Shown here: piece after piece, positions 27,091 to 44,291 of the stretch
Layout of the letters: the number at the start of each line of letters is the position of its first letter
Position numbering within the stretch: position 1 is the stretch's first letter
Source: a virus
IMG/VR virus record: IMGVR_UViG_3300032214_000336
Coordinates: 1 to 49,954 of that record
Strand: one strand, 5' to 3'
Length of the DNA stretch: 49,954 nt
Notes under the pieces: generated by a model
Databases searched by the model: none
Seen by the model: the letters and a program-made list of their open reading frames with translations, nothing else
What the model was told of the DNA's origin: nothing
Position numbers and translations under genes: made by a program

Positions 27091-28896
27091 ATGGCATATT
27101 TAATTACCAAGTCAGACGGAACAACACTTACTACAGTATCAGATGGTCAAATTGACGACCTGTCAACTGACTTGACCCTGATAGGAAAAAATTACAGTGG
27201 CTTTGGCGAATCGTTAAATGAAAATTTTGTTAAACTGTTAGAAAACTTTGCCAGCACAGCTAGACCAACTCGCCCAGTTAGAGGTCAAATTTGGTTTGAT
27301 GTAACTGAATTAAAATTAAAAGTATATAACGGAACTGCATTTCAGCCAGTTAGTTCTGCTACCATTGCGGCTATTCAACCTACTACATTAACTCCGGGTG
27401 ATTTATGGTTTGATGATACAAACAAACAATTATATTTCTATGACGGAGAAAACACATTATTGTTAGGTCCAACGTATGGACTTAGCCAAGGTCTTAGTGG
27501 AATTAGAGTCAGTACAATTCTTGACACATTAAATCAAAGTAAAGTTATTACCAGTTTGTATAACAACGGAACATTGGTAGGTATTTTCTCTAGTGCAGAA
27601 ACTGAGTTTACACCAAAGATTCCAATCGGTGGATTTTCGGGAACAATCACTCCCGGATTCAATGCAGGTTCAATTCCAGGAATTAAATTTAAAGTAACAG
27701 CAACTGATTCAGATAGACTTGGAGGTACAATAGCCAGTACCTATGTTCGAAGAGATGAAAGTACTGTAATTACTGGAAAATTGGGTATCAGCGACGGTAT
27801 TGAAGTAGGTGCTGGTTACACAGGTAGATTATTATCTAATAATGGAGAACTGTTACTACAAAACGTGGCCCTAAACAAGGCTGTAAAAATTAGTGCCAAC
27901 CGCGGTAACATCCAAGATGATGTAGTTATTATAGATCCAAGTACACAGACATTTAAAATATACGATGGATTTATAACTAGCGAAACTACTGTAGGCGGAA
28001 ACCTTACAGTTAAGGGAGACCTTACTGTAGAAGGAAACACTGTTGCTGTAGACGTAGCTAATTTGAGAGTAGAAAATAAACAAATTGAATTAGGAACAAG
28101 TGCAGACAGTTCAATTCTTACTAATGAGCAGGCCGACGGCGGCGGCATTATATTAAGATCTTCCGGCGCCGGCGGCGATAAGGAAATTTATTGGAGCCTA
28201 GTCAACGATGCCTGGACTTTTAATCAACACGTTAATTTAGAAAGAAACAAGTCTATTAGAATCGGAGGGGTTGAACTATTAAAATATAATGAAGGATTGG
28301 CCACCTACGAATTAACTAATTCAGTAACTCGTGCTACAGGTATTAGTATTTTTGGTACGCAATCAGAATGGACAGTAGATAATGTCTACACAAATACCAA
28401 CAGAATTTCTATTATAAATTCAGCAGGTAACTTAGAATTAGAACCTACAACTGGTAGCAGCGTTAGCCTTATTGGATCTCCTAGAATAACAGGATTAGGC
28501 GAGCCCTCTGGATCTCAAGATGCAGCTACTAAGAATTATGTGGATAATCAACTTAGAGCAAAAAGTTTAGCCTTTACGTTTGACATTAGTGATGGTATTT
28601 CAAACGGTGATATTGCAACTTGGTTAGAACAAATTGCTCCGGTAGTAGAATACGGAAATGGAACAATTGCAAGGCTTCTATGTACATATGTAAGTAATCT
28701 TAATACAGATATTGATTCGCTGTTAAATGCAGCATTGAATGAATCTTCTTCTACATTTAATACACCAACTGGCACAGGATCAGCCCTAACTGACGTTAGT
28801 TTTGCTACTGTTACAATTCCAGCACCTGCGGTGAGTATTTCAAGATTAGTAAAAACATATCAGATTACTGCTGGAGTCTGGACATTTGTGTCATAA
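27091..28896 (+). CDS. Tail fibre paralogue, shared N-terminal domain
   Basis: A 601-residue fibre starting MAYLITKSDGTTLTTVSDGQ, with the shared N-terminal domain (GFGESLNENFVKLLENFAS, VRGQIWFDV, then GDLWFDDTNKQLYFYDG) over the first 130 residues. The shaft has beta-repeat sequence (TVGGNLTVKGDLTVEGNTVA). Near 470 is the widespread fibre motif GEPSGSQDAATKNYVDNQLR. The last 100 residues form a separate end domain with no adhesin family I recognise (LLCTYVSNLNTDIDSLLNAA). It follows the collar fibre by 10 bases with an AAGAGA ribosome site. It is probably a structural fibre or adaptor. Confidence 0.8.
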   Translation: MAYLITKSDGTTLTTVSDGQIDDLSTDLTLIGKNYSGFGESLNENFVKLLENFASTARPTRPVRGQIWFDVTELKLKVYNGTAFQPVSSATIAAIQPTTLTPGDLWFDDTNKQLYFYDGENTLLLGPTYGLSQGLSGIRVSTILDTLNQSKVITSLYNNGTLVGIFSSAETEFTPKIPIGGFSGTITPGFNAGSIPGIKFKVTATDSDRLGGTIASTYVRRDESTVITGKLGISDGIEVGAGYTGRLLSNNGELLLQNVALNKAVKISANRGNIQDDVVIIDPSTQTFKIYDGFITSETTVGGNLTVKGDLTVEGNTVAVDVANLRVENKQIELGTSADSSILTNEQADGGGIILRSSGAGGDKEIYWSLVNDAWTFNQHVNLERNKSIRIGGVELLKYNEGLATYELTNSVTRATGISIFGTQSEWTVDNVYTNTNRISIINSAGNLELEPTTGSSVSLIGSPRITGLGEPSGSQDAATKNYVDNQLRAKSLAFTFDISDGISNGDIATWLEQIAPVVEYGNGTIARLLCTYVSNLNTDIDSLLNAALNESSSTFNTPTGTGSALTDVSFATVTIPAPAVSISRLVKTYQITAGVWTFVS

Positions 28897-28914: not shown

Positions 28915-31900
28915 ATGGCCTATATTATAAACAGATTTGATGGAACACAACTTACCATAGTTGATGATGGAGTATTAGATATCAGTACTCCGTTGGGGCT
29001 TATTGGTAGGAACTACACAGGCTACGGCGAAACCCAGAATGAGAATTTTGTTTTCTTATTAGAAAACTTTGCCAATAATGCACCCCCAGCAAGAGCCTTA
29101 AGAGGTCAAATTTGGTACAACACTACTGAAAGGGCGTTAAAAACATATAACGGTACGGATTGGTTGTCGATTGGTAATGCTACTGTAGCTGAAACAGAAC
29201 CTGCTCACAGCTCTGGAGGATTGTGGTTAAATTCAGTAACTAACCAAATGTATGTTAGTGATGGTACTGTTTGGAGATTAGTTGGCCCAGAAGGCGTAGA
29301 GGGCTTTGCAGTTACTAAAATGACCAGCACTAAAATTAGAGATAGCGCCGGAACTTATAAACCTGTAATTATTTCACAAATAAATGGTGAAACTACTGCA
29401 ATTTTAACCAATGAATCTTTTACTATTAATTCTCAAGAAAGTATATTAGGATTTGGTCAATTATACAAGGGAATCAATTTAAAGTCTGATTCATTTTTAA
29501 ACGGAAATGTAAAGGGTAACGCTGATTCTGCTACAAGATTAGAAACAGCTAGAACTATAAATGATGTTGCTTTTAATGGTACTGCAAATATTGTTCTAAC
29601 AGCAACAACTAATCAGCCTTTAAAGCCTGGTGATTATATTCTAGGCTCTGACTTTAGTGGTGCATTTGAAGATACCTGGGACATTGACGCTACTCCTGAA
29701 AATCTAGTTGGCAAAGTAGTAGCAAGAGACAGTACAGGTAGTTTTTCAGCAACTAGTATAACCTCAAGCGAATTTGTTGGAAATTTATTAGGCAATGTTA
29801 CAACCATCACAGGTACTAGTACATTTAGAGAAATTAATGTTACAACAATAATTGGCGATACATTTAGTGGATTGTCAGCTAGAGCTACTAGATTAGAAAC
29901 ACCAAGATTAATAAACACTATTCCGTTTGACGGAACAACTAATATTACCTTGCCTGTTCCTGCCGAAACGCTTATTGGTAGTGCTTTAGCTCCAAACATT
30001 GTTAATTCGAGCTTAACTACATTGGGTCAGTTAGAATATCTAACTGTAGAAGCACCTGGAATTACTGTAGGTGATGGTAATAATATCAATATTAAAATTG
30101 AAGGTTTCACACCTACAATTGAATCTGACACAACAAATATATTAAAATTAAAATTAGCCACTGGCGCAGTAACAGTATCACCGACTACTCTTACATTTCT
30201 ATCAGCATCAGCAGCAGCCGCCGACGGAGTACTTTCTCCAGCTTTTGCTCCTGACTATACATTAGGTACTCCTGAAGATAACAGACCTGTCCTTGGACTT
30301 CCTTCACATAGATGGAAAAATATCTATTCTAAAGCAGCTACATTAGACACCCTTAATGTAACAGTATTAAAAGGTAGAACACCAGCAGATCAAGTTACAG
30401 TATCTAAAGACTTGATTATTAACGGTACAATGTATGGTCCTGTTGTAGGAAATGTTTCTGGAATATTAACTGGTAGTGTCGTAGGTGCTTCTAGTCTTAA
30501 TGTATTAAAGTCTGGTGATACAATGACCGGAGATTTGTCTTGGTCAACTTCTGGTCGAGGCCTCTCGTGGTCTATTAATACAGATTCAGCCAGTATTAGA
30601 TATTATAATTCAACAGATAATTCAACAGACAATCGTCTAGAATTTAATACTGGTGATAATTTAGATGAATATTTTAGATGGACGCATACATCGGCTAACA
30701 CAACCTTTGAATCTATGCGTCTTACTCCGAATGCTAACGGTTTAGCAAATTTAAGAGTATCAGGTCAAATTACAGTAACTGGTGGAATATCAGCAGCTCA
30801 AATAGTTGGTGACGGAAATCAAATTACAAATTTAAATGCTAGTCAAATATTAACTGGTACAATACCAGTGGGTAGACTGGTAGGAACTTATAGTATTAAT
30901 GTAGCAGGTAATCTTACAGGCAATGTAGTAGGAAATTTACAAGGAAATGTTACAGGAAATGTTACAGGAAATGTTACAGGAGCGGCAAGTCTTAATGTAT
31001 TAAAGTCCGGTGATACAATGACCGGAGACTTAAACATTGTTAAAGACAATGCCTGGTTAGTTCTAGATAGTCCAAGTGTAGGAACAGACGGACAGTTCCA
31101 GGCAGCAGGTATCAGTCTAGGCGAGTCTGGTTATAAAGGCAGTGCAACATTACACTTTACCTATACCGGAGATGGATTTGGCCATATTGGTATGGGGCCA
31201 GTTAGCCCATCTACAAGTTTACCGCAATTTGAAGCAATTCGCTTATATTACTTAGATAATACAGTACGAGTATTAGGCAATATGACGGTTGCTGGAACAG
31301 CCAGCGGAACATTTAGCGGAACTGGCACTGGTTTAGATATCAATGCAGACCGTCTAATAACCGGCACCTTGCCTAGAAGTAGATTAACAGGCACATACGA
31401 CATTAGTATATCTGGTAGTTCAAATTATGCTGCATCGGCAGGATCAGCATCAACAGCTTCCACAGCAAATACCGCAACTACAGCAACCTTTTCTAATACC
31501 AGTATAGTAACAGATTCGAGAGCCTCGGTTACAACTCCTCAATCAATTAATCAGGGAGTTGTTTTTGATTTTAAACAAAATGCTACAGATGGTTTAAATG
31601 ATGGAGGTACATATTTTGGAGAGATGACGTTTAGGCCATACGGTAGCTCTTCGGACTGGACAGGAGGCCCATCTCATCAACTTGGTTTTACAAGTAACGG
31701 AAATTTATGGCACAGATCTGGAAGCAACACTTCTTGGGGAAGTTGGCAGCAATTTTTAGATAGTGTAAATTATACAACATATACTGTAACAAAAACAGGT
31801 ACAGGTGCAAGCGGTATATGGCCAATTAGTGTTAGTGGTAATTCAGCTACAGTTTCTTCTATATCTAGTTCACAAGTTATTACAGCCCTGGGTTATACTC

Positions 31901-33219
31901 CTGTAAATCCTGTATCGTTAACTAATCAATCAGGCGGAGCTTTAAATGGAAGTACTGGAACATTTAGTGGAAAAGTATCAATAGCAGCAGGAAGTGATAA
32001 AGGAATTCACTTTCCAAACGATCCGTTTGGAGGCAGCGGCGATGCCGCAAGTATTACATATGAATCAGTCGGTGGCGAACGTACTCGTCTACGCTTTAGA
32101 GTAACAAATGATGCAGGCATTAGTCCTGTTGACGACAAGGCAGAATTTTTAGTACCTGACAATGATAGTTTGTTAGTTAACGGATACGTTACCTTAAATG
32201 CTGCAAACTATACCAATTACACAGTAACAAAAACAGGAACCGGAGCAAGTGGAACTTGGCCAATTAATATTACAGGTAATGCTCTCTCTGTTTCTGCTAT
32301 ATCCGGATCACAGGTTATTACCGCTCTTGGATATACACCAGTAAATCCAAGTGCCCTAACAAATCAAACCGGAGCAGCAATTTCAGGATCAACTGGAACT
32401 TTTACTTCAAATATCAGTGCAGGTAATACAAGCAAAGGTTCTGACACTGTAATTACTGTAATGGCAGGCGATGGTAATAAGGCAGGATTTGAAGCATATG
32501 GTTCTAGTCAGGGTACTGGATATATCTATGTTGGACAATCAACAGTCTACGGTGGCGGAATGTCGTACAATGGCGACGGCGCCCCTGGATTCATTGGCGG
32601 AGAAAGTTCTGATTATGTTTCATTCTTCAGGAGAAATGCAGGAACTGACACTGTAGTATTTGATTACTATTATGCCAATAGTACAGTTAGATTTAAAGGC
32701 GATATTAGTGTAGCTGGAATGATTTACGGCAATTTAACCGGTAATGTTACAGGCCAAGCCAGCTCAGTTGCTTCTATTACTAGCGGACAAGTTGTATCGG
32801 CATTAGGTTATACGCCTGCTAACGGTAGCGGAGCAGGACTTATAAATGGTGAACAAAACTATCAAGACAACAACTTAAAACGTGCAACTATTATTGATTA
32901 CAGTCTTGCACACAACGCATTAACTAATGTATCCGGCGGCACAACTATTAATATGGAACTAGGTAACTATGTTTCTGCAACAGCAGTTGGTGCAGTAACT
33001 TGGACTTTTGCAAACCCCCCAACTGGTGCTAGAGCAGGTAGTATTATTCTAGAACTCACTAACGGCGGAGCTTATACTCAGTATTGGCCTGCAAGTGTTA
33101 GATGGCCAGCTGGATCTGCCCCGAGTCTAGCAGCAGCAGGAGTTGATGTGTTAGTATTCATTACAGACGACGGCGGCACAAACTGGCGCGGCGCAATATC
33201 TATGGGCGATAGCAGATAA
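28915..33219 (+). CDS. Long tail fibre paralogue with repeat-rich shaft
   Basis: A 1434-residue fibre, start supported by CGGAG. The first 130 residues are the shared N-terminal domain (GYGETQNENFVFLLENFAN, LRGQIWYNT). The shaft holds two near-identical LNVLKSGDTMTGDL segments, runs of 4-residue GN(V/L)(T/V)-type repeats, and two copies of an about 70-residue block (NYTxYTVTKTGTGASGxWPI to ALGYTPVNP). A third partial copy (VVSALGYTPANGSGAG) comes near 1300. Near 930 the sequence GNLWHRSGSNTSWGSWQQFL resembles the pyocin knob fold of fibre proteins. The C-terminus (VGAVTWTFANPPTGARAG, VFITDDGGTNWRGAISMGD) is a compact beta domain typical of marine fibres. The next gene, a multi-domain adhesin, begins 1 base after the stop and may form its tip. 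Confidence 0.82.
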   Translation: MAYIINRFDGTQLTIVDDGVLDISTPLGLIGRNYTGYGETQNENFVFLLENFANNAPPARALRGQIWYNTTERALKTYNGTDWLSIGNATVAETEPAHSSGGLWLNSVTNQMYVSDGTVWRLVGPEGVEGFAVTKMTSTKIRDSAGTYKPVIISQINGETTAILTNESFTINSQESILGFGQLYKGINLKSDSFLNGNVKGNADSATRLETARTINDVAFNGTANIVLTATTNQPLKPGDYILGSDFSGAFEDTWDIDATPENLVGKVVARDSTGSFSATSITSSEFVGNLLGNVTTITGTSTFREINVTTIIGDTFSGLSARATRLETPRLINTIPFDGTTNITLPVPAETLIGSALAPNIVNSSLTTLGQLEYLTVEAPGITVGDGNNINIKIEGFTPTIESDTTNILKLKLATGAVTVSPTTLTFLSASAAAADGVLSPAFAPDYTLGTPEDNRPVLGLPSHRWKNIYSKAATLDTLNVTVLKGRTPADQVTVSKDLIINGTMYGPVVGNVSGILTGSVVGASSLNVLKSGDTMTGDLSWSTSGRGLSWSINTDSASIRYYNSTDNSTDNRLEFNTGDNLDEYFRWTHTSANTTFESMRLTPNANGLANLRVSGQITVTGGISAAQIVGDGNQITNLNASQILTGTIPVGRLVGTYSINVAGNLTGNVVGNLQGNVTGNVTGNVTGAASLNVLKSGDTMTGDLNIVKDNAWLVLDSPSVGTDGQFQAAGISLGESGYKGSATLHFTYTGDGFGHIGMGPVSPSTSLPQFEAIRLYYLDNTVRVLGNMTVAGTASGTFSGTGTGLDINADRLITGTLPRSRLTGTYDISISGSSNYAASAGSASTASTANTATTATFSNTSIVTDSRASVTTPQSINQGVVFDFKQNATDGLNDGGTYFGEMTFRPYGSSSDWTGGPSHQLGFTSNGNLWHRSGSNTSWGSWQQFLDSVNYTTYTVTKTGTGASGIWPISVSGNSATVSSISSSQVITALGYTPVNPVSLTNQSGGALNGSTGTFSGKVSIAAGSDKGIHFPNDPFGGSGDAASITYESVGGERTRLRFRVTNDAGISPVDDKAEFLVPDNDSLLVNGYVTLNAANYTNYTVTKTGTGASGTWPINITGNALSVSAISGSQVITALGYTPVNPSALTNQTGAAISGSTGTFTSNISAGNTSKGSDTVITVMAGDGNKAGFEAYGSSQGTGYIYVGQSTVYGGGMSYNGDGAPGFIGGESSDYVSFFRRNAGTDTVVFDYYYANSTVRFKGDISVAGMIYGNLTGNVTGQASSVASITSGQVVSALGYTPANGSGAGLINGEQNYQDNNLKRATIIDYSLAHNALTNVSGGTTINMELGNYVSATAVGAVTWTFANPPTGARAGSIILELTNGGAYTQYWPASVRWPAGSAPSLAAAGVDVLVFITDDGGTNWRGAISMGDSR
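30493..31031 (+). repeat. 44-base direct repeat pair in the long fibre gene
   Basis: The segment 30493-30536 recurs at 30988-31031 with two differences in 44 bases, both silent. It encodes SLNVLKSGDTMTGDL both times. Near-identity at the DNA level over a gap of about 450 bases suggests recent duplication or ongoing conversion, and recombination between copies would delete or add a shaft block. Confidence 0.85.
30907..30978 (+). repeat. Six 12-base tandem repeats, Gly-Asn-x-x shaft
   Basis: Six consecutive 12-base units; the last three (30943-30978) are identical, GGAAATGTTACA, encoding Gly-Asn-Val-Thr. The earlier three are degenerate. The same unit recurs in another fibre gene at 40541-40636. 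Confidence 0.9.
31768..32420 (+). repeat. Two copies of an about 70-residue fibre block
   Basis: The block starting at 31768 (NYTTYTVTKTGTGASG) is repeated from 32206 (NYTNYTVTKTGTGASG). Both continue through a SxxxSQVITALGYTPVNP segment and end in a GSTGTF segment, about 215-220 bases each. The DNA copies have diverged more than the protein, so this duplication is older than the 44-base one upstream. Confidence 0.8.
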
Positions 33220-33220
33220 T

Positions 33221-36200
33221 ATGTTAGCATTAGAAAAAGTTTTACTTGGCAGCGCTTATTACTATAGGCCCAAAGCTCAGGGTCAACAAGAATTCACCTC
33301 CCCGGGAACATATTCATTTATTGTTCCTGCCAATGTTGAATCTATATCAATGGTTGCAGTTGGTGGTGGTGGCGGTGGCGCAAGTGTTAACGATGGCGGC
33401 GCAGGCGGCGGCGGAGCACTAGCTTACTCAAATAATGTTGCTGTAACTCCTGGAGAATCTCTAACAGTAGTAGTTGGCGCTCCCGGCACCCCAGGCGGAG
33501 GATCCGGTACAGCAGGCGGCACATCTAGCGTTACTAGAAGTGGCACTGGATCTCAAATATATGATAATTTTGAAACGGTCGGAGTATTGGGATCTAAATG
33601 GATTAGCAGCCAAGGTGTAACTGTTAAAAATTGGGGAACTGGAACGGGCGGATACCCTGCAGGTCCTGGATTTGCATCTAGTGGTATTTCAGGAAGTTCG
33701 GCTTATTTAGGATTTAATGGCAACGCTGGATTTCGTCAGGCTACTACTCAGTCTCAAGATTTAACATATGCTACTAAGTTAAAAATTAGATATATTTACG
33801 GCAATGGAACAAATGGCGGCGAGCAGGTTGACAACGGTGAATATCTTGGTATTGCATTATCTTTAAGCCCAGGTAATGCCAACAATAACTCAGGTTATAC
33901 TGATATTATCTATCCTTTTTCATTAGTATATTCTTGGACAGATGGAGAAATAGCGATTCCTTCTCTTTGGAAGAGAGCTGGAGTTTATATAAGAATTTAT
34001 CAACTAAGTTCTAGCGGTAGCGAATTTGATCACATAGGTATAGATAATTTTACCATTGAATACGGTAATAGACTATTAGTAGCTGCCGGCGGCGGCCAAC
34101 CTGGCGTAGGAAATCGTGGCGGCAACGGCGGAGTACCTGCAGGTAGTACAAGCGATCAATATTCTTCATCTGTTGTATTGCTATTAACTGGTGACGGAGG
34201 AGATGGCTCAAGGAACTTTGTCGATAGCTCGCCTAATCCTAAAACAATATCAAACTTTCAAGATCTCAATGGCACCGGCTATCCTTTGCAGACTACAAGA
34301 TTTAAAAAGTTTGGATCAGGCAGCATAGATTTTAACGGTAGATCATCTTTTTATGTCACAGGCGGAACAGATTTTGTTCTAGGCGGAGATTTTACCATAG
34401 AAGGATGGCTATGGGTTAATGATCAAGATCAGGAACCTTATGAAACTATCTGGGAACTTGGAGACTATCGAAACGGTATATTATTTAGATTTGGATATTC
34501 TATTGATAATTTTTATATTAACGGTGTCCGTCGTATTAACAATATAAGACAGTTTTTTCCGCCGTTACAATGGCATCATTTTGCAGTGGTTAGAAGTGGA
34601 TCAACAGTAACAGTATATGCTAACGGTGTCTCTATTTCTAGTTTTACAGAAACTGGAGTAATTAATTCTAATGGCGGGTCTTTAAGAGTTGGCGAGTCTA
34701 GCCATACTGGTGGTCAACAGTCACCACCTATGTACCTTGATGAGTTTAGAATAACCAAAGGTGTTGCTAGATATACTGGTAATTTTACTCCCCCTACAAC
34801 TTCTTCAAACGACACCACATCCTTAACTAACTTTACAGGATTTCCAGGAGGCGCAGGCGGAAGCGGATCAGAGTTTTTTGGCGGAAACTATCTTACGGGT
34901 GGCGGCGGCGGCGCCGGCGGATATACCGGCAGTGGTGGAGCAGGCGCTGGCAGTAGAGACAGTCCAACTTTTGGTGTAGGTTCTACCGGTGGCGGCGGAG
35001 CAGGTGGTAATAATAATGACATTCGAGGTTTTGGCGGCGGCGGCACTGGGCTAAAAGGAATTTCAAATAATGGCTCCGGTAACGGTGGTGGAGGGTCTTC
35101 TTATAATTCTGTAACTGATTTTATCTCCAGCAATATAAATTCACAGGTTGATTTTTATCCTGTTACATTATCTTATGCCTGGGGCAATTTTTTAAACACC
35201 TACGGAGTATGGTACGATAACGGCACTTATAACAGAGGATGGTATGCTCCGTACACTGGCACATATACTATGGAGTATACAGCCGACAATTATATAGAAG
35301 TTAGAGTTGACGGTAGACTTGTAGGAGTTGAAAGTAATTTTGGCGGATCAACGGTTTCTACATTTACTGCTAGTCAAGGCATAGTGATTTTATCTTTTGC
35401 TGTGGCAAACTATGGCGGTCCTGCAGGATTTGCAGTAACCATTAGAGATAGAAATAACACACTTCTTTGGGACACTAGAACCTACGCTTCTAAAAATTCC
35501 ATCAATCAGGCAATACGATCAGTAGCTGCAGGAACTAACGGAACACAACCGAATGGAGGTTTTCCTGGCGGAGGTGGCGCCGGATATGATACTGACGGCA
35601 GCGGCTCTACTGGTGCAGGATTTGGCGGCGCGGGTGCAGTTAGGATTATATGGGGAGCAAATAGAAGTTATCCATACAACGCTAATGATGTTACACCAAT
35701 TTCGGTAGCTTCTATTAATGGTTTAATATTGTACTATGATGCAGAAAATGCAGCATCATATAGCGGTGGAAATACAATCTATGATATTTCTGGAAATGCT
35801 AACAGTGGAACTATCACTTTAGGATATGCTCCAGCTACAGTTCCTTCTTTAGGATCTAATAAGGTTATTAGATTTCCAGCAACACAAAATACTAAGATAG
35901 ATTTTAATGCCAACGAATTAACTTCTACCACTATTACAGTTGAAATGTGGACTATTGCCTATAGCTTTGCTAGCGGAATGTTCTTTGGATGGAATATACA
36001 CGATGTTTGGACACAAGGAGGAACATTAGGTTATAATACAGGACAAGGAGATATTTACGGTATTTCAGCAAGTAGAATTAACTCACTCAATGTTACTGGC
36101 CGATGGGCTCATTATGTATTTGTTATGAATGTTGGGGACTATAACAGAAATAAGATTTATATCAACGGAGTTTCGCAGTCTCTCAGCCAACAATATTCAA

Positions 36201-36862
36201 ATCAGTATACTCCTTATGCTAATTTTAACAGCGGAGTCGGCAGAATAGGCGGTTGGAGAAATGATAACAACTATCAACAGGTAATGGATCTTGGCGTTTT
36301 TAAAATCTATAATAGAGAACTAACACAGGCTGAAATTACTACTAATTATAACGAAAAGAAAGCACAATACAGCACACCTGTTTATTATGCGGGATTATGG
36401 GGCAAAAGAGTTAGCGGTTATTATAATGACAATGTTAATTATTTTGCTTCTAATTCAACAGTTGAAACTAGAATTGTAACAGATTTTTCATATTTTAGTT
36501 CTTACACTGATCAATACAGTTGGGAATTTAAAGGATACTTTAGAGCCCCTGCCGACGGCACATATACATTTGCTACAACATCAGATGATGCAAGTCATTT
36601 ATGGATAGGAACAACAGCAGTATCGGGATTTAGTACAGGAAATGCTTTAGTAAATAACGGAGGCCTACACGGTGCAAGATACATTCAAGCTTCTATTAGT
36701 TTATTAGCTAATGTTTATTATCCTATACGAATCCAATTTGGAGAAAATTACGGTGCGGATTTATTAGCAGTGTATGTATACGGCCCTACAATTACAGATG
36801 CTGACGGAAATCCAAGTACCGGTAATGGATATTTTTTCCATGATGATACTAATAAACTTTAA
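33221..36862 (+). CDS. Glycine-rich multi-domain adhesin with LamG and PA14/GLEYA-like domains
   Basis: A 1213-residue protein. After a short leader comes FTSPGTYSFIVPANVESI, the first strand of a glycine-rich phage adhesin fold. That fold is interrupted by foreign domains: residues about 115-282 resemble a jelly-roll (reelin-like) domain; about 315-527 is a concanavalin/LamG domain (GDFTIEGWLWVNDQDQ, QWHHFAVVRSGSTVTVYANG, YLDEFRITKGVARYTGNFTP); about 641-757 is PA14-like. Glycine-rich pieces at about 45-100, 285-305, 560-612 and 779-813 separate them, and the fold closes with FGGAGAVRIIWGANRSYP. A second LamG domain (about 832-1050; YLxDxx-type core with WAHYVFVMN) and a C-terminal PA14/GLEYA-like domain (about 1052-1213; GYFRAPADGTYTFATTSDDA) follow. 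These families bind glycans in known cases, so receptor binding at a fibre tip is likely. It has no signal peptide. Confidence 0.8.
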   Translation: MLALEKVLLGSAYYYRPKAQGQQEFTSPGTYSFIVPANVESISMVAVGGGGGGASVNDGGAGGGGALAYSNNVAVTPGESLTVVVGAPGTPGGGSGTAGGTSSVTRSGTGSQIYDNFETVGVLGSKWISSQGVTVKNWGTGTGGYPAGPGFASSGISGSSAYLGFNGNAGFRQATTQSQDLTYATKLKIRYIYGNGTNGGEQVDNGEYLGIALSLSPGNANNNSGYTDIIYPFSLVYSWTDGEIAIPSLWKRAGVYIRIYQLSSSGSEFDHIGIDNFTIEYGNRLLVAAGGGQPGVGNRGGNGGVPAGSTSDQYSSSVVLLLTGDGGDGSRNFVDSSPNPKTISNFQDLNGTGYPLQTTRFKKFGSGSIDFNGRSSFYVTGGTDFVLGGDFTIEGWLWVNDQDQEPYETIWELGDYRNGILFRFGYSIDNFYINGVRRINNIRQFFPPLQWHHFAVVRSGSTVTVYANGVSISSFTETGVINSNGGSLRVGESSHTGGQQSPPMYLDEFRITKGVARYTGNFTPPTTSSNDTTSLTNFTGFPGGAGGSGSEFFGGNYLTGGGGGAGGYTGSGGAGAGSRDSPTFGVGSTGGGGAGGNNNDIRGFGGGGTGLKGISNNGSGNGGGGSSYNSVTDFISSNINSQVDFYPVTLSYAWGNFLNTYGVWYDNGTYNRGWYAPYTGTYTMEYTADNYIEVRVDGRLVGVESNFGGSTVSTFTASQGIVILSFAVANYGGPAGFAVTIRDRNNTLLWDTRTYASKNSINQAIRSVAAGTNGTQPNGGFPGGGGAGYDTDGSGSTGAGFGGAGAVRIIWGANRSYPYNANDVTPISVASINGLILYYDAENAASYSGGNTIYDISGNANSGTITLGYAPATVPSLGSNKVIRFPATQNTKIDFNANELTSTTITVEMWTIAYSFASGMFFGWNIHDVWTQGGTLGYNTGQGDIYGISASRINSLNVTGRWAHYVFVMNVGDYNRNKIYINGVSQSLSQQYSNQYTPYANFNSGVGRIGGWRNDNNYQQVMDLGVFKIYNRELTQAEITTNYNEKKAQYSTPVYYAGLWGKRVSGYYNDNVNYFASNSTVETRIVTDFSYFSSYTDQYSWEFKGYFRAPADGTYTFATTSDDASHLWIGTTAVSGFSTGNALVNNGGLHGARYIQASISLLANVYYPIRIQFGENYGADLLAVYVYGPTITDADGNPSTGNGYFFHDDTNKL

Positions 36863-36874
36863 CAGGAAAAGACA

Positions 36875-37375
36875 ATGTTACTTTATATTAAAATAGAAAA
36901 CGAACAACCAGTAGGATATCCACTGACAGTGCAGACTATACGAGATCTGTATCCACATATTTCCTTTCCTTCGATCATTGATTCTAGCGAATTGTTAACG
37001 TTAGGATATGCAGAATTCATTAGAACTTTGCCTCCTACCGCAGGAGTGTTGCAAAAAGCCGTAGAATTAACTCCAATTTTTGACGGAACAGTAGCCACAC
37101 AGACCTGGGAACTTCAAGATATGAGCGATCAAGAAAAAGCAGATGTTACCGCTAATGCATTGATCGCAGCTCGAAGTGTACAAAAAAGCCTATTAGCTGT
37201 ATCTGATTGGACTGAAATGCCTAGTGTACAGGCTAAAAAAGACCAGGCCTGGAAAGACGCCTGGGCAGAGTATAGAACCGCAGTTAGAGATGCTGATAAA
37301 CAAGCCACTTGGCCTATAGGTCCTATATGGCCTGTAGAACCTATTAATGATATAGGCGAGCCCGAACCCAATTAA
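36875..37375 (+). CDS. Tail fibre assembly chaperone-like protein
   Basis: A 166-residue protein whose last 80 residues carry the pattern of phage tail assembly chaperone-like proteins: LLAVSDWTEMPSVQAKK, then WAEYRTAVRDADKQATWPIG and a Pro/Trp-rich end (PIWPVEP). In other phages proteins with this ending are encoded just after a fibre or adhesin gene and help it fold or attach. Here it follows the multi-domain adhesin by 12 bases, which fits that partnership. The N-terminal half (VGYPLTVQTIRDLYPHISFP) is a separate small domain. The ribosome site AGGAAA is well placed. Confidence 0.72.
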   Translation: MLLYIKIENEQPVGYPLTVQTIRDLYPHISFPSIIDSSELLTLGYAEFIRTLPPTAGVLQKAVELTPIFDGTVATQTWELQDMSDQEKADVTANALIAARSVQKSLLAVSDWTEMPSVQAKKDQAWKDAWAEYRTAVRDADKQATWPIGPIWPVEPINDIGEPEPN

Positions 37376-37417: not shown

Positions 37418-38941
37418 ATGGCATATCAAATTGATAGATATAATGGTACTTTTTTAGTTTCGATTGATGATCAAACCATCAATAGTACTGCTACGGACCT
37501 ACGTCTTGTAGGTCGAAATTATAGTGGTTACGGTGAAATTCAAAATGAAAATCTATTACATTTATTAGAAAATTTTGCCAATACTAGCGCACCTCCTAGA
37601 GCAATCTTAGGACAACTTTGGTACGATTCTGTTAATAAAAAAATTAAAGTCTATGACGGTACTAAATTTAAACTAGTCGGCGGCGCTGAATCTAGTGCTA
37701 ATGCACCTTCGGGTCTAGCAGTAGGTGATTTTTGGTGGGATAATCAGAACGAACAAATTAATGTATGGAACGGTACAGAGTTTGTTGTAGTTGGACCGGA
37801 AAGATCTCCAGCATATGGTAACACTTCGGCATTGCCGGCAGTAGTTAAAGACTCAGTAGGCACTGATCAACAGATTATTAAGTTTCAAGTTGGTGGCGAA
37901 GTTATTGCTATAATTAGTAGAGCTGAATTTACATTGAATAATGTTTTGAATCCTATTACTGGATTTTTACAGATAACTCCTGGTATTAATTTTATCAATA
38001 GTGCTATTACAGGAGAGACCAGTAGTGTTCATAGATTTAAAGGAACTGCATCAAATTCAGAAAGATTGGGTGGTTTTTTAGTTACTGATTTTTTAAGAAC
38101 AGGCTCTACAAGATTTGATTCTCAGATTAGTTTTTCGGATAACGGTCTAAAAGTTGGCGATCAAGATGATTTTAGAATTCGAATATTAAGTGGTAATAGT
38201 CCAACTATTGAAAGCACCAGTAATCAATCTATAATTATAAGAATATCTAACAATGATACTGATATACGCGATGTAGTTGTAGTAAAAAGAACAGGAATTG
38301 AACCAGGTTCTACAGGATTGTATGATCTTGGTTCAGTTGCAGCTAAATGGAAAACTGTAAATGCAGAAGAAGTAACAGCTAATACATTTTACGGTAAATT
38401 AGTAGGAACAGTGGAAACAGCCCCAGGCCCAGGAGGCATTACTCCCCCATTAGCAATTCAAAGTATCGCAGTTAGCGGTGCATTTAATATGACTGGCAGC
38501 GGATCATCATCAAATTTTAATGTTAATCTTGCAGGCAGTACCAGCGCTGTTAATCTATCATCTGGAACAGTTGGAAGTTTAAATAATTTTAATATTGGCG
38601 GAACAACTCCTGGTACGGCCAGAGTTACTACTTTAAATACAACAGGATCTACTACTATAGGATCTACTTTATCAGTAACTGATAATGCAACAATGAACGG
38701 AACTTTATCGGTAGCTGGCAACGTATTTTTTACAGGAGTAGGGGCAGTTAAAGTTCCAGTTGGATCAACTGCACAACGACCTGCATCTCCTGATAGGGGA
38801 ATGATTAGATTTAACACTACAATTGGCGAGTGGGAAGGATACGATGGTGCTGAATGGAGATTAATCGGCGGAGATGCCGACGAGGATTACGGATTAATTA
38901 CCAGTGGTGCTGATACATTTGTAGATTACGGCGGATTATAA
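37418..38941 (+). CDS. Tail fibre paralogue, shared N-terminal domain
   Basis: A 507-residue fibre starting MAYQIDRYNGTFLVSIDDQT, nearly the same opening as the fibre at 39536. Residues 1-130 are the shared domain (GYGEIQNENLLHLLENFAN, ILGQLWYDS, GDFWWDNQNEQINVWNG). The middle is Ser/Thr/Gly-rich beta shaft (TTGSTTIGSTLSVTDNATM). The C-terminus from about 442 has VPVGSTAQRPASPDRGMIRF then EGYDGAEWRLIGGDADED, a common end in marine phage fibres. It is probably a short fibre with an exposed, variable tip. A candidate late promoter lies just upstream. Confidence 0.8.
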   Translation: MAYQIDRYNGTFLVSIDDQTINSTATDLRLVGRNYSGYGEIQNENLLHLLENFANTSAPPRAILGQLWYDSVNKKIKVYDGTKFKLVGGAESSANAPSGLAVGDFWWDNQNEQINVWNGTEFVVVGPERSPAYGNTSALPAVVKDSVGTDQQIIKFQVGGEVIAIISRAEFTLNNVLNPITGFLQITPGINFINSAITGETSSVHRFKGTASNSERLGGFLVTDFLRTGSTRFDSQISFSDNGLKVGDQDDFRIRILSGNSPTIESTSNQSIIIRISNNDTDIRDVVVVKRTGIEPGSTGLYDLGSVAAKWKTVNAEEVTANTFYGKLVGTVETAPGPGGITPPLAIQSIAVSGAFNMTGSGSSSNFNVNLAGSTSAVNLSSGTVGSLNNFNIGGTTPGTARVTTLNTTGSTTIGSTLSVTDNATMNGTLSVAGNVFFTGVGAVKVPVGSTAQRPASPDRGMIRFNTTIGEWEGYDGAEWRLIGGDADEDYGLITSGADTFVDYGGL

Positions 38942-38961: not shown

Positions 38962-39534
38962 ATGGCAAAAAGAATACAATTTAGGCGTGGAACAACAACT
39001 GAACACGCAACGTTCGTGGGTGCTCCTGGTGAACTTACAATTGACACCACAAAGAAAACAGTAGTTGTTCATGACGGTGTTACCCCAGGGGGTTTTCCAG
39101 CGACACGATTAGATGCAGCAGGGGGAATATCAACTTTTAACGGACCTATTGTTGTTACAGATGCTACTCCTAGTACATCAACAACTACCGGTGCTATACG
39201 AATTACTGGTGGATTAGGAGTAGGAGCAAGAATTACCTGCTCACAACTAGTTGAAACATCTACTATTACAGTTAAAGAAAATGTAAATCCTATTTCAAAT
39301 GCTCTTGAAGATATATTAAAGTTAACTGGTGTAACTTATGATAGAAAAGATAAATCTTCAATTAATGAGGCCGGCTTAATTGCAGAAGATGTAGATAAAG
39401 TATTACCTAACTTGGTTGTAAAAGATGATAAAGGTAATCCTAATGGAATATATTATACAAAATTAGTAGCTTATCTAGTAGAAGCAATTAAAGATCAACA
39501 AGAACAAATTGAAGAGCTAAAGAAAAAGGTATAA
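38962..39534 (+). CDS. Small Mtd-like N-terminus / S74 intramolecular chaperone protein
   Basis: A 190-residue protein joining two fibre modules. Residues 1-50 (RIQFRRGTTTEHATFVGAPG, VHDGVTPGGFPATR) match the N-terminal domain of major-tropism-determinant-type proteins. Residues about 98-190 form an S74 endosialidase-type chaperone (NALEDILKLTGVTYDRKD, AGLIAEDVDKVLPNLVVKD, YYTKLVAYLVEAIKDQQEQI) ending in a coiled coil. The self-cleavage dyad appears intact: Ser100 and Lys105, spaced five residues as in known S74 domains. Almost no receptor-binding body remains between them. It is sandwiched between two fibre paralogues, so it may trimerise as a mini-fibre or supply its chaperone in trans; both are inference. 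Confidence 0.82.
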   Translation: MAKRIQFRRGTTTEHATFVGAPGELTIDTTKKTVVVHDGVTPGGFPATRLDAAGGISTFNGPIVVTDATPSTSTTTGAIRITGGLGVGARITCSQLVETSTITVKENVNPISNALEDILKLTGVTYDRKDKSSINEAGLIAEDVDKVLPNLVVKDDKGNPNGIYYTKLVAYLVEAIKDQQEQIEELKKKV

Positions 39535-39535
39535 A

Positions 39536-41290
39536 ATGGCCTATCAAGTAAATAAATTCAACGGAACATTCTTAGTTTCAGTAGCAGATGGTACGATAGA
39601 TTCTACCACTAATATTCGTTTTGTTGGCAAAAATTATGCAGGTTACGGACAAGTTCAGAATGAAAATTTCTTACATCTACTAGAACATTTTGCCGGAGCA
39701 AGTCAACCAAGTAAACCAGTCAGCGGACAATTATGGTACGATTCTTCAGATAGAAAAATTAAAATCTATGATGGAACAAGATTTAGACCAGTTGGAGGAG
39801 CAACTTCAAGCGCCACTGCTCCATTGGGATTAAGTGCTGGCGAATTTTGGTTTGATAGTCTTGCACAACAATTATACTGCTGGACTGGTAGTGAATATGT
39901 TTTAGTTGGTCCAGAAAGTCCCGGAACATTAGGCGAAACCTCATTAACATCAGTTACAGTTAAAGACACCGGGAATGAAAGCCACACTATTGCTAAAATC
40001 AAATCAGGTGGAACTGACATTGCAGTTTTTAGCAAAGATACATTTAATCTTAGTGATGCTGACAAAACTCTTCTTCCAAATTTTGGAAGAATTAAAAAAG
40101 GTATTACACTTGTAAACACTGATAACGATAACGGAATAACAACATCTGCATCAGGTACTGTTATTTGGGGAACGGCAACATCTGCTCAACGTCTTGTGGA
40201 TATTGAAGACAGTTCTGTATTTTATGATATAACTGATTTTGTATTAAAAGATTCTCCAACATTTACCACCTCTGTAACTTTTAATAACGGATTTATTTTA
40301 GGTTCAGTTCCACGTGCAGCCGCTGAAATTGCTAACGGTGCGGATTTGTTGTTTAGAACTTATTCAACAGGCAGTAAGATAATTTTATTGCCAGCAGGCG
40401 GTGATGCCGCTGGCGTGTTACAAATTGACAACGAATCAGTTATACCGTCATCGGGCGTAAGTTTAGGCAGCGATGCGGATAGATTTTATCAAATATTTTC
40501 AGACAACATTGCAGGAACAAGTATAGTAGGTGCGTTTTTTGGTAATCTAACAGGAAATGTTACAGGTAATATTGTTGGCAATGTCGCTGGTAATCTAACA
40601 GGTAATGTTACTGGTAATCTAACAGGTAATGTTACCGGCAATGCAAGTTCTGCTACAAATGCCAGTAGATTAAATAATACAGAAGCTAGCGATGCAGCAA
40701 CAAACTCAACTGTAGCATTAAGAACTGCTAGTGGTAATTTAGTAGCTAATCAGTTTATAGGTACTGCTGATAAAGCTGATCGTATAAAAATAGATAACAG
40801 TGCATCTGATAATCCGGCCTCCGCATATAAGACGGCAATGACCACACAAACTCCGTTAACTATTGCTGCAAGAGATAGTAGTGGAGATATTACAGCTAGA
40901 ATTTTTAGAGGCACCGCCACAGCAGTTCAAGCAGCAGACCTTGCTGAGAAATATCTAGCTGACAAAGAATATGAAATTGGTACTGTGATAATAGTGGGCG
41001 GAGAACGTGAAGTTACTGCCAGTGTTTGGGTCGGTCAACGTGCTATAGGTGTTGTATCTGGAAATCCAGGTTATATGATGAACACTGAATTAGATGGCGG
41101 TACTTATGTTGCATTAAAAGGTCGAGTACCTGTAAAAGTTATCGGTCAAGTTAAAAAAGGTGACAGACTGATAGCAGCACCCGATGGGTATGCAACTGTT
41201 AGCGAAGATTCTAATTCCAATACCTTTGCTATCGCATTAGAAACAAGTCTAAATACTGAAGTAAAATTAATTGAAGCAATTGTTCTCTAA
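39536..41290 (+). CDS. Tail fibre paralogue with Gly-Asn repeat shaft
   Basis: A 584-residue fibre starting 1 base after the preceding stop. Residues 1-130 are the shared N-terminal domain (GYGQVQNENFLHLLEHFAG, VSGQLWYDS, GEFWFDSLAQQLYCWTG). Residues about 336-370 are the 4-residue GN(L/V)TG-type repeat. From about 466 a distinct C-terminal domain begins (AADLAEKYLADKEYEIGTVI, AIGVVSGNPGYMMNTEL, YVALKGRVPVKVIGQVKKGD), a unit that recurs at the end of marine phage fibres and vaguely recalls self-cleaving G2-type fibre ends; I see no certain catalytic residues. Confidence 0.8.
   Translation: MAYQVNKFNGTFLVSVADGTIDSTTNIRFVGKNYAGYGQVQNENFLHLLEHFAGASQPSKPVSGQLWYDSSDRKIKIYDGTRFRPVGGATSSATAPLGLSAGEFWFDSLAQQLYCWTGSEYVLVGPESPGTLGETSLTSVTVKDTGNESHTIAKIKSGGTDIAVFSKDTFNLSDADKTLLPNFGRIKKGITLVNTDNDNGITTSASGTVIWGTATSAQRLVDIEDSSVFYDITDFVLKDSPTFTTSVTFNNGFILGSVPRAAAEIANGADLLFRTYSTGSKIILLPAGGDAAGVLQIDNESVIPSSGVSLGSDADRFYQIFSDNIAGTSIVGAFFGNLTGNVTGNIVGNVAGNLTGNVTGNLTGNVTGNASSATNASRLNNTEASDAATNSTVALRTASGNLVANQFIGTADKADRIKIDNSASDNPASAYKTAMTTQTPLTIAARDSSGDITARIFRGTATAVQAADLAEKYLADKEYEIGTVIIVGGEREVTASVWVGQRAIGVVSGNPGYMMNTELDGGTYVALKGRVPVKVIGQVKKGDRLIAAPDGYATVSEDSNSNTFAIALETSLNTEVKLIEAIVL
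40541..40636 (+). repeat. Eight 12-base tandem repeats in a fibre gene
   Basis: Eight 12-base units encode GN(L/V/I)(T/V/A)-type repeats. Three copies of GGTAATCTAACA alternate with GGTAATGTTAC-type units, so the later part is a 24-base higher-order repeat. It shares its unit with 30907-30978 in the long fibre gene. Confidence 0.9.
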
Positions 41291-41299
41291 GGATTAAAA

Positions 41300-42193
41300 A
41301 TGGCAGGATCAGGAACCACAGTACTTGCAAGCGATGTTAACACACCGTATACTACCGGTGTTAACGTTATGGGCGTTGGCTCCGTAAGTAGAGGATACGG
41401 CCAATCCACTTTTGGTTCAGGAGTAACCACAAGCACCATCATCAATGCAAATGATTATAATAACATTAGATATGATTTATTAAATGCCAGTGCTCATCAA
41501 AATGGCTCAGCTGGTGCTCTAACTTTGGCAGGAAAAGTTTCGGGAGATTTACTCGACACAACTGATGCAACAAACTTTTTAGCCTATCAAAGCACAGTCG
41601 ACTCTGACAGATTTAACTGTCATTCAACTAGAAAAACTACAGCCGCTGCCGGAGGCAATTCGAGAACAAGTTCTTGGGCCAGTTCAGTGACTGCAACTTA
41701 TACTCTCAATTTTGCAAACGCTAACGAAGCACGTTATTTTTGGAACGGCGGAGGTAGAATAAGAATAGCTAGTTCTAGAACTGGAGGAGCCGCTAGTTCG
41801 CAAAATACCGCTTGGAGTAATCTATTAAGTTCTGCAGGAACTCAAGAATTTGGCGGTATTGGAGTTTATGGGTGGAATGTGGCATCTACTGATCTTTACC
41901 AAGTTTTTAGTTCAGCTCCTTATGCATCTAACAGTTATAAAATAGCAGTTCGTGTTAATACAAACAACAGTTCGGGCGGAGCAAACATATTCTATTTTGA
42001 TCTAACCTGGGCAGATCCATATGTTGATCCAATGCCAGGCGCCCCGCCGTTGCCAGAAGATATTGTCGATGGCACATTAAGCTATTCTGTTGAAATCACA
42101 TATCCCACTGGCGGCCATGCTTTAACTCCTAGCGGTACCTGGACAAGTTATAGCTATTCTTCGTACAATGCTAGTGCAATAACTGGCGGATAA
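41300..42193 (+). CDS. Unrecognised likely virion protein at the end of the fibre module
   Basis: A 297-residue protein, rich in Ser, Thr, Ala, Asn and Gly, with no charged domain, membrane segment or signal peptide. Visible features are an N-terminal ASDVNTPYTTGVNVMGVG, a central beta-rich region (ATYTLNFANANEARYFWNGG then GRIRIASSRTGG) and a Tyr/Ser-rich end (GTWTSYSYSSYNAS). The composition and place after the last fibre suggest a structural or fibre-tip component. The ribosome site TAAGGA is good. Its stop is followed by a strong stem-loop, making it the last gene before the sugar operon. Confidence 0.7.
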   Translation: MAGSGTTVLASDVNTPYTTGVNVMGVGSVSRGYGQSTFGSGVTTSTIINANDYNNIRYDLLNASAHQNGSAGALTLAGKVSGDLLDTTDATNFLAYQSTVDSDRFNCHSTRKTTAAAGGNSRTSSWASSVTATYTLNFANANEARYFWNGGGRIRIASSRTGGAASSQNTAWSNLLSSAGTQEFGGIGVYGWNVASTDLYQVFSSAPYASNSYKIAVRVNTNNSSGGANIFYFDLTWADPYVDPMPGAPPLPEDIVDGTLSYSVEITYPTGGHALTPSGTWTSYSYSSYNASAITGG

Positions 42194-42197
42194 TATT

Positions 42198-42251
42198 TTG
42201 GGCTCAATTCATAGCTGGTAAATAAACAGCTATGTTTATTCGGAGACCCAA
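42198..42251 (+). promoter_or_regulatory. Start-sequestering RNA stem-loop between fibre and sugar modules
   Basis: Almost the whole intergenic gap folds on itself. Paired segments are 42198-42202 with 42247-42251, 42203-42205 with 42243-42245, 42206-42208 with 42238-42240, and 42210-42217 with 42227-42234 (CATAGCTG/CAGCTATG), giving about 19 pairs with small bulges and a 9-base loop. The Shine-Dalgarno GGAG (42242-42245) and the A of the ATG (42251) lie in the stem. A competing hairpin, AATAAAC/GTTTATT (42221-42227 with 42234-42240), would break the inner stem. No run of T follows, so it is not a typical terminator. Translational control or transcript processing is inferred. Confidence 0.6.
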
Positions 42252-42601
42252 TGGACGACAGATTATCTAAGGCTCTTGAGTTTGCCAATTATCGCCAGAC
42301 TCTTGCCATTCAAAGAAAAACCCTTAAAGAAAAAATTGCTGCAAAGCTAACCTACGGTCATGCAGGCGGTCTATTTAAAATCAATCGTGAACTGATTGTG
42401 TTTGTACAAATGTTGATAGATCAAGGTCGCGTTGAAAATGTACCTTTTATTGACGAAAATGGAAATCCAGTACTTATAGCCGATCTACAGGCATTTAAAG
42501 ATGAAATTATAGATAGATACTTCACATCTACCTATGAATATTATGAAGATTATCAAAAAATTAAATCTAGTAGAACAGTTGAAAAGTTATTGGATGTATG
42601 A
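42251..42601 (+). CDS. Small phage protein with helical N-terminus, function unknown
   Basis: A 116-residue protein, first gene of the overlapping downstream operon. Residues 1-35 are charged and heptad-like (ALEFANYRQTLAIQRKTLKE), consistent with a coiled coil. The middle reads GGLFKINRELIVFVQMLIDQ and the end is Tyr-rich and charged (YFTSTYEYYEDYQKIKS). I recall similar small proteins in marine T4-like phages, always unnamed. Start ATG 42251 has GGAG five bases upstream, but both are buried in the stem-loop described above. The stop overlaps the next start as ATGA. Confidence 0.75.
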   Translation: MDDRLSKALEFANYRQTLAIQRKTLKEKIAAKLTYGHAGGLFKINRELIVFVQMLIDQGRVENVPFIDENGNPVLIADLQAFKDEIIDRYFTSTYEYYEDYQKIKSSRTVEKLLDV

Positions 42602-43458
42602 CACAAGGTGCATTAATATTTGCTCATAATAGTCCTGATATTGATTACGGCTTAATGGCTATAATTGCAGGAGGCCTTGCCAAAAAAAATCTAGGTATCC
42701 CTGTAAGTTTAGTCACAGATCTAGGCACATTAAATTGGCTTGAAGAATCGGGAACATTGGCTAAAGCTAAAGAAGTTTTTGATAAAATTATAGAAGTTGA
42801 AAGACCTTATACTAAAAATGTAAGAAATCTGCACGACGGATTTGAAAGTAAAATTATACCGTTTGTAAATTCAAATAGATATAGTGTTTGGGAATTAAGC
42901 CCCTACAACAAAACACTATTACTTGATAGCGACTATCTTGTATTTTCAAATAGACTAAACGAATATTGGTCAGTGGATGCTCCAGTAATGATGGCTCATA
43001 GTATGACCGATTTAACCGGTGACCGTAGCGGCATTCTAGACAGTCGTGTAAGCGAAACTGGCGTACATATGTTCTGGGCTACAACCGTAATGTTTGACAA
43101 AAGCCCCGAAAGCGAATTCTTTTTTAAATTGGTAGACTTTGTCAAAGACAATTATGTTTACTATGCAGACCTATTCCGTTTTAATCCCAAACAGTTTAGA
43201 AACGACATTGCCTTTAGTGTTGCTAAACATATTATGAATGGATTTGAAACTGAATTTGCCTATACACTTCCACCTATATTAACAGTATTTGATAAAGATG
43301 TTTTACAGAGTGTTAATAACAATCAACTAACATTTTTAGTCAGCCAACCTCAAGATGTTTCAGCGTTCTGGGCCGCCACAACTCGAGGTGTCGATGTTCA
43401 TATTATGAACAAACAAAGTATAATCAGAAACAAAGATAGTCTTCTGGAGTTAATATGA
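42598..43458 (+). CDS. GT-A-like glycosyltransferase
   Basis: A 286-residue protein with the outline of a GT-A fold transferase. It has an N-terminal nucleotide-binding-like start (GALIFAHNSPDIDYGLMAII), then TLLLDSDYLVF with the DxD-type metal motif at residues 110-112. Downstream are WELSPY and a conserved-looking acceptor region (ETGVHMFWATTVMFDKSPES). It is likely to transfer a sugar from a nucleotide-sugar in the infected cytoplasm; donor and acceptor cannot be read. The next gene is a paralogue (same opening with HPDIDY and an equivalent DxD), so they probably arose by duplication. It starts at the ATGA overlap with the upstream gene. Confidence 0.66.
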   Translation: MTQGALIFAHNSPDIDYGLMAIIAGGLAKKNLGIPVSLVTDLGTLNWLEESGTLAKAKEVFDKIIEVERPYTKNVRNLHDGFESKIIPFVNSNRYSVWELSPYNKTLLLDSDYLVFSNRLNEYWSVDAPVMMAHSMTDLTGDRSGILDSRVSETGVHMFWATTVMFDKSPESEFFFKLVDFVKDNYVYYADLFRFNPKQFRNDIAFSVAKHIMNGFETEFAYTLPPILTVFDKDVLQSVNNNQLTFLVSQPQDVSAFWAATTRGVDVHIMNKQSIIRNKDSLLELI

Positions 43459-44291
43459 ACTTTGGTTACCTAATGTTTGTAGCAGCCCACCCGGATATAG
43501 ACTATGTTAAATTAGCCTATGCCGCTGCTTTAAGTATCAAAAATACACAACGTGAAGGTTATGATAAGGTAGCATTAGTCATTACCGATAAAACACTTTT
43601 AGATAATTTAAAAAGCCCTTGGGTATTTGACCAAGTTATTGAATGGCCCGAACAAACATTTTGGGATGGACGTAGTTGGATGGATCATCTTACGCCTTGG
43701 GATCATACAGTTTGTATTGATGCAGATATGTTATTTTTAAGAGATTATAGTCATTGGATTGATTACTTTATAGAAAACTCTGAATTATATATTGCCAATA
43801 AGGCATATACATATAGGGGCGAAGTTGTTACCAGCGATGCCTATCGTAAAACATTTACTAAAAATGAATTGCCTAATCTTTATTCCATGTGGACTTTCTT
43901 TAAAAAAGATGCAGGCAAAGAATTTTTTGAATTAGCAAGGCAGATTTTTATTAATCCTATTGAATTTAAAAATTTATATCTAAGTAATCATACACCTAAA
44001 GTTATAGGTACAGATGAAGCGTTTGCATTGTCTGCAAAACTATTAGATATTGACAGTGAAATTGCCTACCCTTTAGATTTTCCAAGAGTCGTACATCTAA
44101 AACCTCAGGTGCAGAATTGGCCTTGGGATGCTGACCGGGTTACGGATCAAGTGGGATTTTATCTTAAGAGTGACGGCGGTTTAAAAATTGGAAACTATCA
44201 ACAGACTGATATTATTCATTATGTTGAAAAAAACATTATTACTGATGAATTAATTAGTATATTAGAGGAGATAGTATGGAAGAAAAACTAG
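43455..44291 (+). CDS. GT-A-like glycosyltransferase, paralogue of the upstream gene
   Basis: A 278-residue protein parallel to its upstream neighbour: MFVAAHPDIDYVKLAYAAAL at the N-terminus and HTVCIDADMLFLRDY with DAD at residues 89-91. A late segment has FPRVVHLKPQVQNWPWD, resembling the C-terminal His-containing motif of family-8-like transferases. A good GGAG lies before the start, and the ATG overlaps the preceding stop as ATGA. It is probably a sugar transferase acting in the same pathway; the donor is unknown. Confidence 0.68.
   Translation: MNFGYLMFVAAHPDIDYVKLAYAAALSIKNTQREGYDKVALVITDKTLLDNLKSPWVFDQVIEWPEQTFWDGRSWMDHLTPWDHTVCIDADMLFLRDYSHWIDYFIENSELYIANKAYTYRGEVVTSDAYRKTFTKNELPNLYSMWTFFKKDAGKEFFELARQIFINPIEFKNLYLSNHTPKVIGTDEAFALSAKLLDIDSEIAYPLDFPRVVHLKPQVQNWPWDADRVTDQVGFYLKSDGGLKIGNYQQTDIIHYVEKNIITDELISILEEIVWKKN

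Follow-up and report, generated by a model that had tools for sequence, protein, structure and literature searches.

A glycine-rich core interrupted by three whole domains in a probable tail-fibre-tip adhesin of a metagenomic phage

In phage fibre tips, a change of specificity is usually attributed to short variable loops or to swaps of the whole tip. One of the closest described systems is the Pam3 fibre, where a role in receptor binding has been proposed for the distal glycine-rich loops and gp25 acts as the chaperone (PMC9608196). That a binding module can sit inside a tail protein is already known from the evolved Dit (PMC6669499). Here we describe a gene whose product combines a glycine-rich core with three inserted and two appended domains.

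The window analysed is a complete IMG/VR record, a metagenomic virus contig of 49,954 bases. Its left part encodes baseplate proteins, including a wedge protein (E 1e-287) and a hub/lysozyme. Among isolated phages, those nearest to the window in the wedge protein (33-36% identity) are for the most part jumbo myoviruses, Agrobacterium phage Atu_ph07 and Salicola phage SCTP-2 among them. The source of the window is probably a contractile-tailed phage, and probably a jumbo phage. Directly 3' of the wedge gene, 9844-24114 encodes a protein of 4756 aa that matches the FG-GAP repeat and CBM_5_12. A tail-fibre cluster lies to the right of the baseplate genes. Five of its genes (24792-27080, 27091-28896, 28915-33219, 37418-38941 and 39536-41290) have in common a related N-terminal module (MAYxINxFDGT..) with phrog_14394/15511 matches, which suggests a fibre family with a common attachment part. 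The 190-aa gene at 38962-39534 combines a major-tropism-determinant N-terminal domain with a Peptidase_S74 (endosialidase chaperone) domain. Past the fibre cluster, 41300-49444 holds mostly unmatched genes, with a radical SAM domain in 46792-48165.

The interrupted core

An earlier note on this DNA had described 33221-35670 as one continuous glycine-rich adhesin core with three whole domains inserted into its loops, followed by a second LamG and a GLEYA/PA14 domain. The Pfam search of the open reading frame returned Gly_rich_2 (39 bits, cut-off 24.3), Laminin_G_3 and PA14/GLEYA. A core profile of 254 positions was then built from 95 uninterrupted cores. Against this profile, the intact 1213-aa protein gave separate collinear matches at positions 1 to about 92, about 105 to 200, and 209 to 254. 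When the four pieces were spliced in script, a single full-length match was obtained (profile 1-254, 139.6 bits). The native order scored best, as the five other orders of segments 2-4 gave 97.5-127.2 bits. Splices with residue-shuffled tails (n=200) reached at most 98.6 bits, against 100 bits for the N-terminal piece alone. The 31-aa core segment 2 is the least certain, because 127 bits were still reached when it was moved to the end. In MAFFT alignments with 12 random sets of uninterrupted cores, 74-92% of the residues of these cores fell on the four core segments, which represent about one third of the length aligned. In these alignments the protein was restricted to aa 14-830. One glycine-rich core interrupted by three domains, as the note had proposed, is thus confirmed for this reading frame, in the form of a Gly_rich_2 core in four collinear pieces. 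Position 35670, the end given in the note, falls just beyond the last core strand, AVRIIWG (aa 806-812), and the second LamG and PA14/GLEYA domains extend past it to 36862.

Features of the adhesin gene and its two neighbours. Boundaries between core segments and inserts are accurate to +-10 aa.
Feature	Position	Strand	Basis
Upstream tail-fibre gene, probable shaft, 1434 aa	28915..33219	+	PHROG tail fibre
Probable tail-fibre-tip adhesin gene, 1213 aa, single open frame	33221..36862	+	intact ORF; dN/dS 0.11 overall vs L004
Core segment 1, aa 21-110: TNF-like strands, first glycine loops	33281..33550	+	profile 1-92; Gly_rich_2 E 1.2e-9; pLDDT mostly 85-96
Insert 1, aa 111-281: reelin/CBM35-like jelly roll, at core beta-hairpin turn	33551..34063	+	Foldseek; sub-threshold Pfam
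Core segment 2, aa 282-312	34064..34156	+	RLLVAAGGG.. = TVKGGGG.. of uninterrupted cores
Insert 2, aa 313-530: LamG domain (LamG1)	34157..34810	+	Laminin_G_3 E 2.6e-12; PHROG matches
Core segment 3, aa 531-628, glycine-rich motifs	34811..35104	+	profile ~105-200
Insert 3, aa 629-762: Synechococcus phage structural-protein-type beta domain	35105..35506	+	phrog_773; tblastn S-E7
Core segment 4, aa 763-812, closing strand AVRIIWG	35507..35656	+	profile 209-254; strand pLDDT about 91
Second LamG (LamG2), aa ~830-1050, after core	35708..36370	+	Laminin_G_3 E 2e-8
C-terminal PA14/GLEYA domain, aa 1051-1213	36371..36859	+	GLEYA E 9.6e-16; PA14 E 1.2e-15
Tail-fibre-assembly-like gene, 166 aa, probable tip folding chaperone	36875..37375	+	PF16778 E 2.5e-8; fibre-assembly PHROGs

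A pattern search of IMG/VR with the whole protein gave no match; relatives were found by core-based searches. The search with the N-terminal core returned two kinds of relatives, one with the same architecture and one with short uninterrupted cores (L009 and L010). Two larger IMG/VR searches yielded 162 viral cores with both end motifs. Uninterrupted homologues are plentiful: the core spans 300 aa or less in 152 of the 162, with a median of 252 aa for the whole set, compared with 790 aa in the window and 802 aa in the relative L004, inserts included. These frequencies are rough, because sampling favours near relatives. The uninterrupted relatives, about 150 in number, represent natural controls. 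A scan of bacterial genomes with the core returned one relative. Several glycine-rich cores also occur in tandem within single proteins (L050:5733-10436, L087:5199-9884 and L025:1185-5360).

Fold of the core and identity of the added domains

The uninterrupted core of L009, predicted from a 62-row alignment, gave a confident model (mean pLDDT 85.8, pTM 0.83). Its best solved match by Foldseek was the Pam3 tail fibre (7ypx, E 1.6e-6, TM 0.53/0.59), followed by the Bxb1 tail tip and, weakly, by ALK glycine-rich domains. When solved structures were searched by sequence with the core, no meaningful match was obtained, and the Pam3 link comes from the fold search only. The model of the window protein (aa 14-830) was weak, with a pLDDT of 59.1 and a pTM of 0.54; its alignment had been selected as the best of 12 random sets, which has to be kept in mind. 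In ten-residue blocks, pLDDT was high in the strands of segment 1 and in the closing strand (table), ranging elsewhere from 27 to 76 in core segment 3, 47 to 83 in insert 1, 26 to 57 in LamG1 and 26 to 75 in insert 3 (59-75 in its beta-rich part). The interrupted model still matched the Pam3 fibre (7ypx, E 1.1e-3). A TNF-like sandwich with a glycine-rich lattice is thus found in the L009 model, and weakly in that of the window. Structure prediction, which the earlier note had proposed as a check, gave a confident model for a natural uninterrupted relative, folded in place of the spliced core, and a weak one for the window protein. Because an uninterrupted relative folds confidently and matches a solved phage fibre, the core is predicted to be a fold of phage-adhesin type rather than a set of unstructured linkers. 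Neither of the two outcomes that the note had named as refuting its reading was thus observed. The matches from a fold search of viral models with the window model included glycine-rich-domain or collagen-like proteins of giant viruses of eukaryotes (Bandra megavirus, Pandoravirus, Fadolivirus and Pithovirus).

The identities of the added domains are supported with varying strength. Insert 1 matched reelin repeats (E 2.3e-5), CBM35 (E 4.9e-4) and other jelly rolls by Foldseek. Its match to Pfam Reelin_subrepeat-B (E 1.6e-4, 21.9 bits) lies below the cut-off of 27 and is read as a fold resemblance only. Judging from strand order, insert 1 occupies one of the hairpin turns in the TNF-like sandwich and may be directed away from the distal glycine-rich tip. 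Both LamG domains passed the Laminin_G_3 cut-off of 27.6, with 47.5 bits for aa 313-530 and 34.9 bits for aa 830-1050. Insert 3 clearly matched phrog_773 (positions 459-574, E 5.7e-9; 2.5e-17 for the L004 copy) and, by tblastn, Synechococcus phage structural proteins, including the S-E7 'structural protein with PA14 domain' (E 1e-4). Its own match to Pfam PA14 (E 0.02, 15.1 bits) is under the cut-off of 24, and we filed it as a phrog_773 domain instead. Among the labels of the earlier note, LamG is supported by profile matches and jelly roll by fold matches, and PA14-like for insert 3 corresponds to a sub-threshold Pfam match. Inteins or introns were also considered for the inserts but rejected, because the inserts keep the reading frame and their matches are to ordinary beta domains.

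In PA14 lectins, an Asp-Asp pair in cis holds the sugar-binding calcium (PMC8092209). The C-terminal PA14/GLEYA domain carries, besides its profile matches, a consecutive Asp-Asp at aa 1122-1123 (nt 36584-36589), where TSDDASHLWIG aligns with TVDDSAILSVG of yeast FLO1. Calcium and sugar binding are predicted only, and this motif is the best hint of glycan binding that the sequence offers. For the inserted and appended domains in general, glycan binding would be expected from the families they belong to. The arrangement of up to five binding surfaces on one tip, proposed in the earlier note, is putative, as insert 1 may face another way. Altogether, that earlier reading is partly supported.

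Neighbouring genes, conservation and competing explanations

The ATG of the adhesin gene lies one base past the stop codon of the upstream fibre gene. The C-terminal 120 aa or so of this fibre protein (from about 32845) recur in genes directly preceding glycine-rich tips in lineages L002, L003, L004, L059, L040, L086, L209, L251 and L044. On the other side, the assembly chaperone gene that adjoins the fibre gene in the Gly_rich_2/Pam3 type is represented by 36875-37375. In an iterative search, 57 of 128 core genes, with that of the window among them, were followed by a relative of this chaperone-like gene. Shaft, tip and chaperone form a recurring trio, since the fibre module before the core gene and the chaperone-like gene after it recur in other lineages. 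Given its place after a fibre gene and before a chaperone-like gene, the 33221-36862 reading frame most likely encodes a fibre-tip adhesin.

We consider it highly probable that this protein is the tail-fibre-tip adhesin of a contractile phage, with a TNF-like/glycine-rich core, three loop inserts and two appended domains that provide further, probably carbohydrate, contacts. As in the Pam3 fibre, the core would be a TNF-like beta sandwich with loops that continue into a glycine-rich lattice. The jelly roll, the first LamG and the cyanophage-type beta domain are inserted into core loops, the core sequence pattern remaining unbroken, and the second LamG and a PA14/GLEYA lectin domain follow the core. 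Such a tip would cap the upstream fibre protein, and the product of the downstream chaperone-like gene would assist the tip in folding. Contact with the cell surface would be made by the variable distal glycine-rich loops of the tip and also by its inserted and appended domains, these extra contacts being probably carbohydrate-binding. One tip may in this way grip several cell-surface sugars.

The complete architecture was found in one relative, L004, and its beginning is shared by L003 and L002 up to their contig ends. Since the window is a metagenomic contig, and the architecture is complete in one other contig only, the combination of domains could be an assembly artefact or a decaying, non-functional gene. 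This is very improbable, as the segments are 62-83% identical (window against L004) between contigs that come from different samples, with no stop codons. Moreover, the dN/dS ratio was about 0.1 overall and 0.07-0.24 per segment (LamG1 not included), with the caveat that synonymous sites are near saturation. These values indicate purifying selection on a conserved architecture. For insert 1, insert 3 and the PA14 domain, IMG/VR pattern searches returned, as far as such searches reach, close relatives from this lineage only.

The glycine-rich pieces might also be flexible linkers between independent lectin-like domains, with no single core. Glycine-rich sequence is indeed of low complexity and easily aligned, and pLDDT is low in LamG1 and in parts of core segment 3. 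Nevertheless, the pieces are collinear with a conserved family of about 252 aa and have the same end strand, the order and shuffle controls favour the native splice, and an uninterrupted relative is predicted to fold like a solved fibre. We regard such linkers as improbable. A different objection leaves the nested architecture in place and concerns the function of the inserts, which could be spacers, trimer stabilisers or docking sites for virion or chaperone proteins rather than lectins. Many virion proteins whose role is unknown contain LamG or PA14-like domains, insert 1 may point away from the tip, and insert 3 has no recognised sugar-binding motif. Against this possibility, which we consider rather unlikely, stand the resemblance of insert 1 to CBM35 in fold, the Asp-Asp motif in the C-terminal PA14 domain, and the fact that other phage tails use carbohydrate-binding modules as inserts (PMC6669499).

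Other nested tips and comparison with known systems

Nested inserts were found in three other lineages, two of which use the same loops as the window. L192 and L228 carry a phrog_773-type domain (E 3.9e-13 in L192) in the inter-glycine loop that holds insert 3. Their insert family and insert 3 match the same part of phrog_773; on a quick tree with long branches, one versus two entries of this domain gave an AU p of 0.22. In L061, a module of about 65 aa (phrog_21413, E 1.2e-7), unrelated to the jelly roll of the window, lies at the hairpin of insert 1. The glycine-rich tip L059:2203-4044 has an insert of about 290 aa in a third, central loop, with weak propeller-like matches (DUF6242, BNR). 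End-to-end fusions of core and LamG were seen in L039, L042, L050 and L087. The loops of glycine-rich TNF-like fibre tips might be reusable sockets for whole domains, an idea that we hold tentatively. If it is true, host contacts would evolve through the uptake of whole domains by a tip core that is itself kept. Whole-domain insertion into the loops of such a core would add another way to reach multivalent recognition.

The window core is a member of Pfam Gly_rich_2 (PF21722)/phrog_4474, nearly all sampled members of which are uninterrupted and about 250 aa long. It resembles Pam3 gp24 (PDB 7ypx, 7yfw; PMC9608196) in its TNF-like and glycine-rich tip fold, and the pairing of the fibre gene with an assembly chaperone gene recalls Pam3 gp24-gp25 (PMC9608196). 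Unlike gp24, the window core carries three whole-domain interruptions and two domains after it, and is preceded by only about 20 aa, with no N-terminal helices.

As with S16-type gp38 of T-even phages (PDB 6F45; PMC6851490), a separate tip protein is encoded after the fibre gene, and glycine-rich motifs alternate with variable distal loops (PMC6851490). Unlike the window core, gp38 has a beta-helix base and short variable segments (PMC6851490). The listed 50 PDB matches of the L009 core, headed by the Pam3 fibre, do not include gp38 (6f45). The window tip would work like gp38 adhesins, yet its modelled scaffold is not that of gp38 and it does not appear to be one of them.

The window tip has in common with the evolved Dit, and with further CBM-decorated proteins of lactococcal siphophage tails (PMC6669499), a carbohydrate-binding module, putative in the window, within a structural tail protein. 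The evolved Dit differs in its scaffold, in having usually one insertion and in its Gram-positive hosts (PMC6669499). In titles and abstracts, with partial coverage of the literature, we did not find multiple whole-domain insertion in this glycine-rich scaffold described; it is what is new here, in about four lineages. The parts of this tip are of known kinds, and it is their plugged-in arrangement that is rare.
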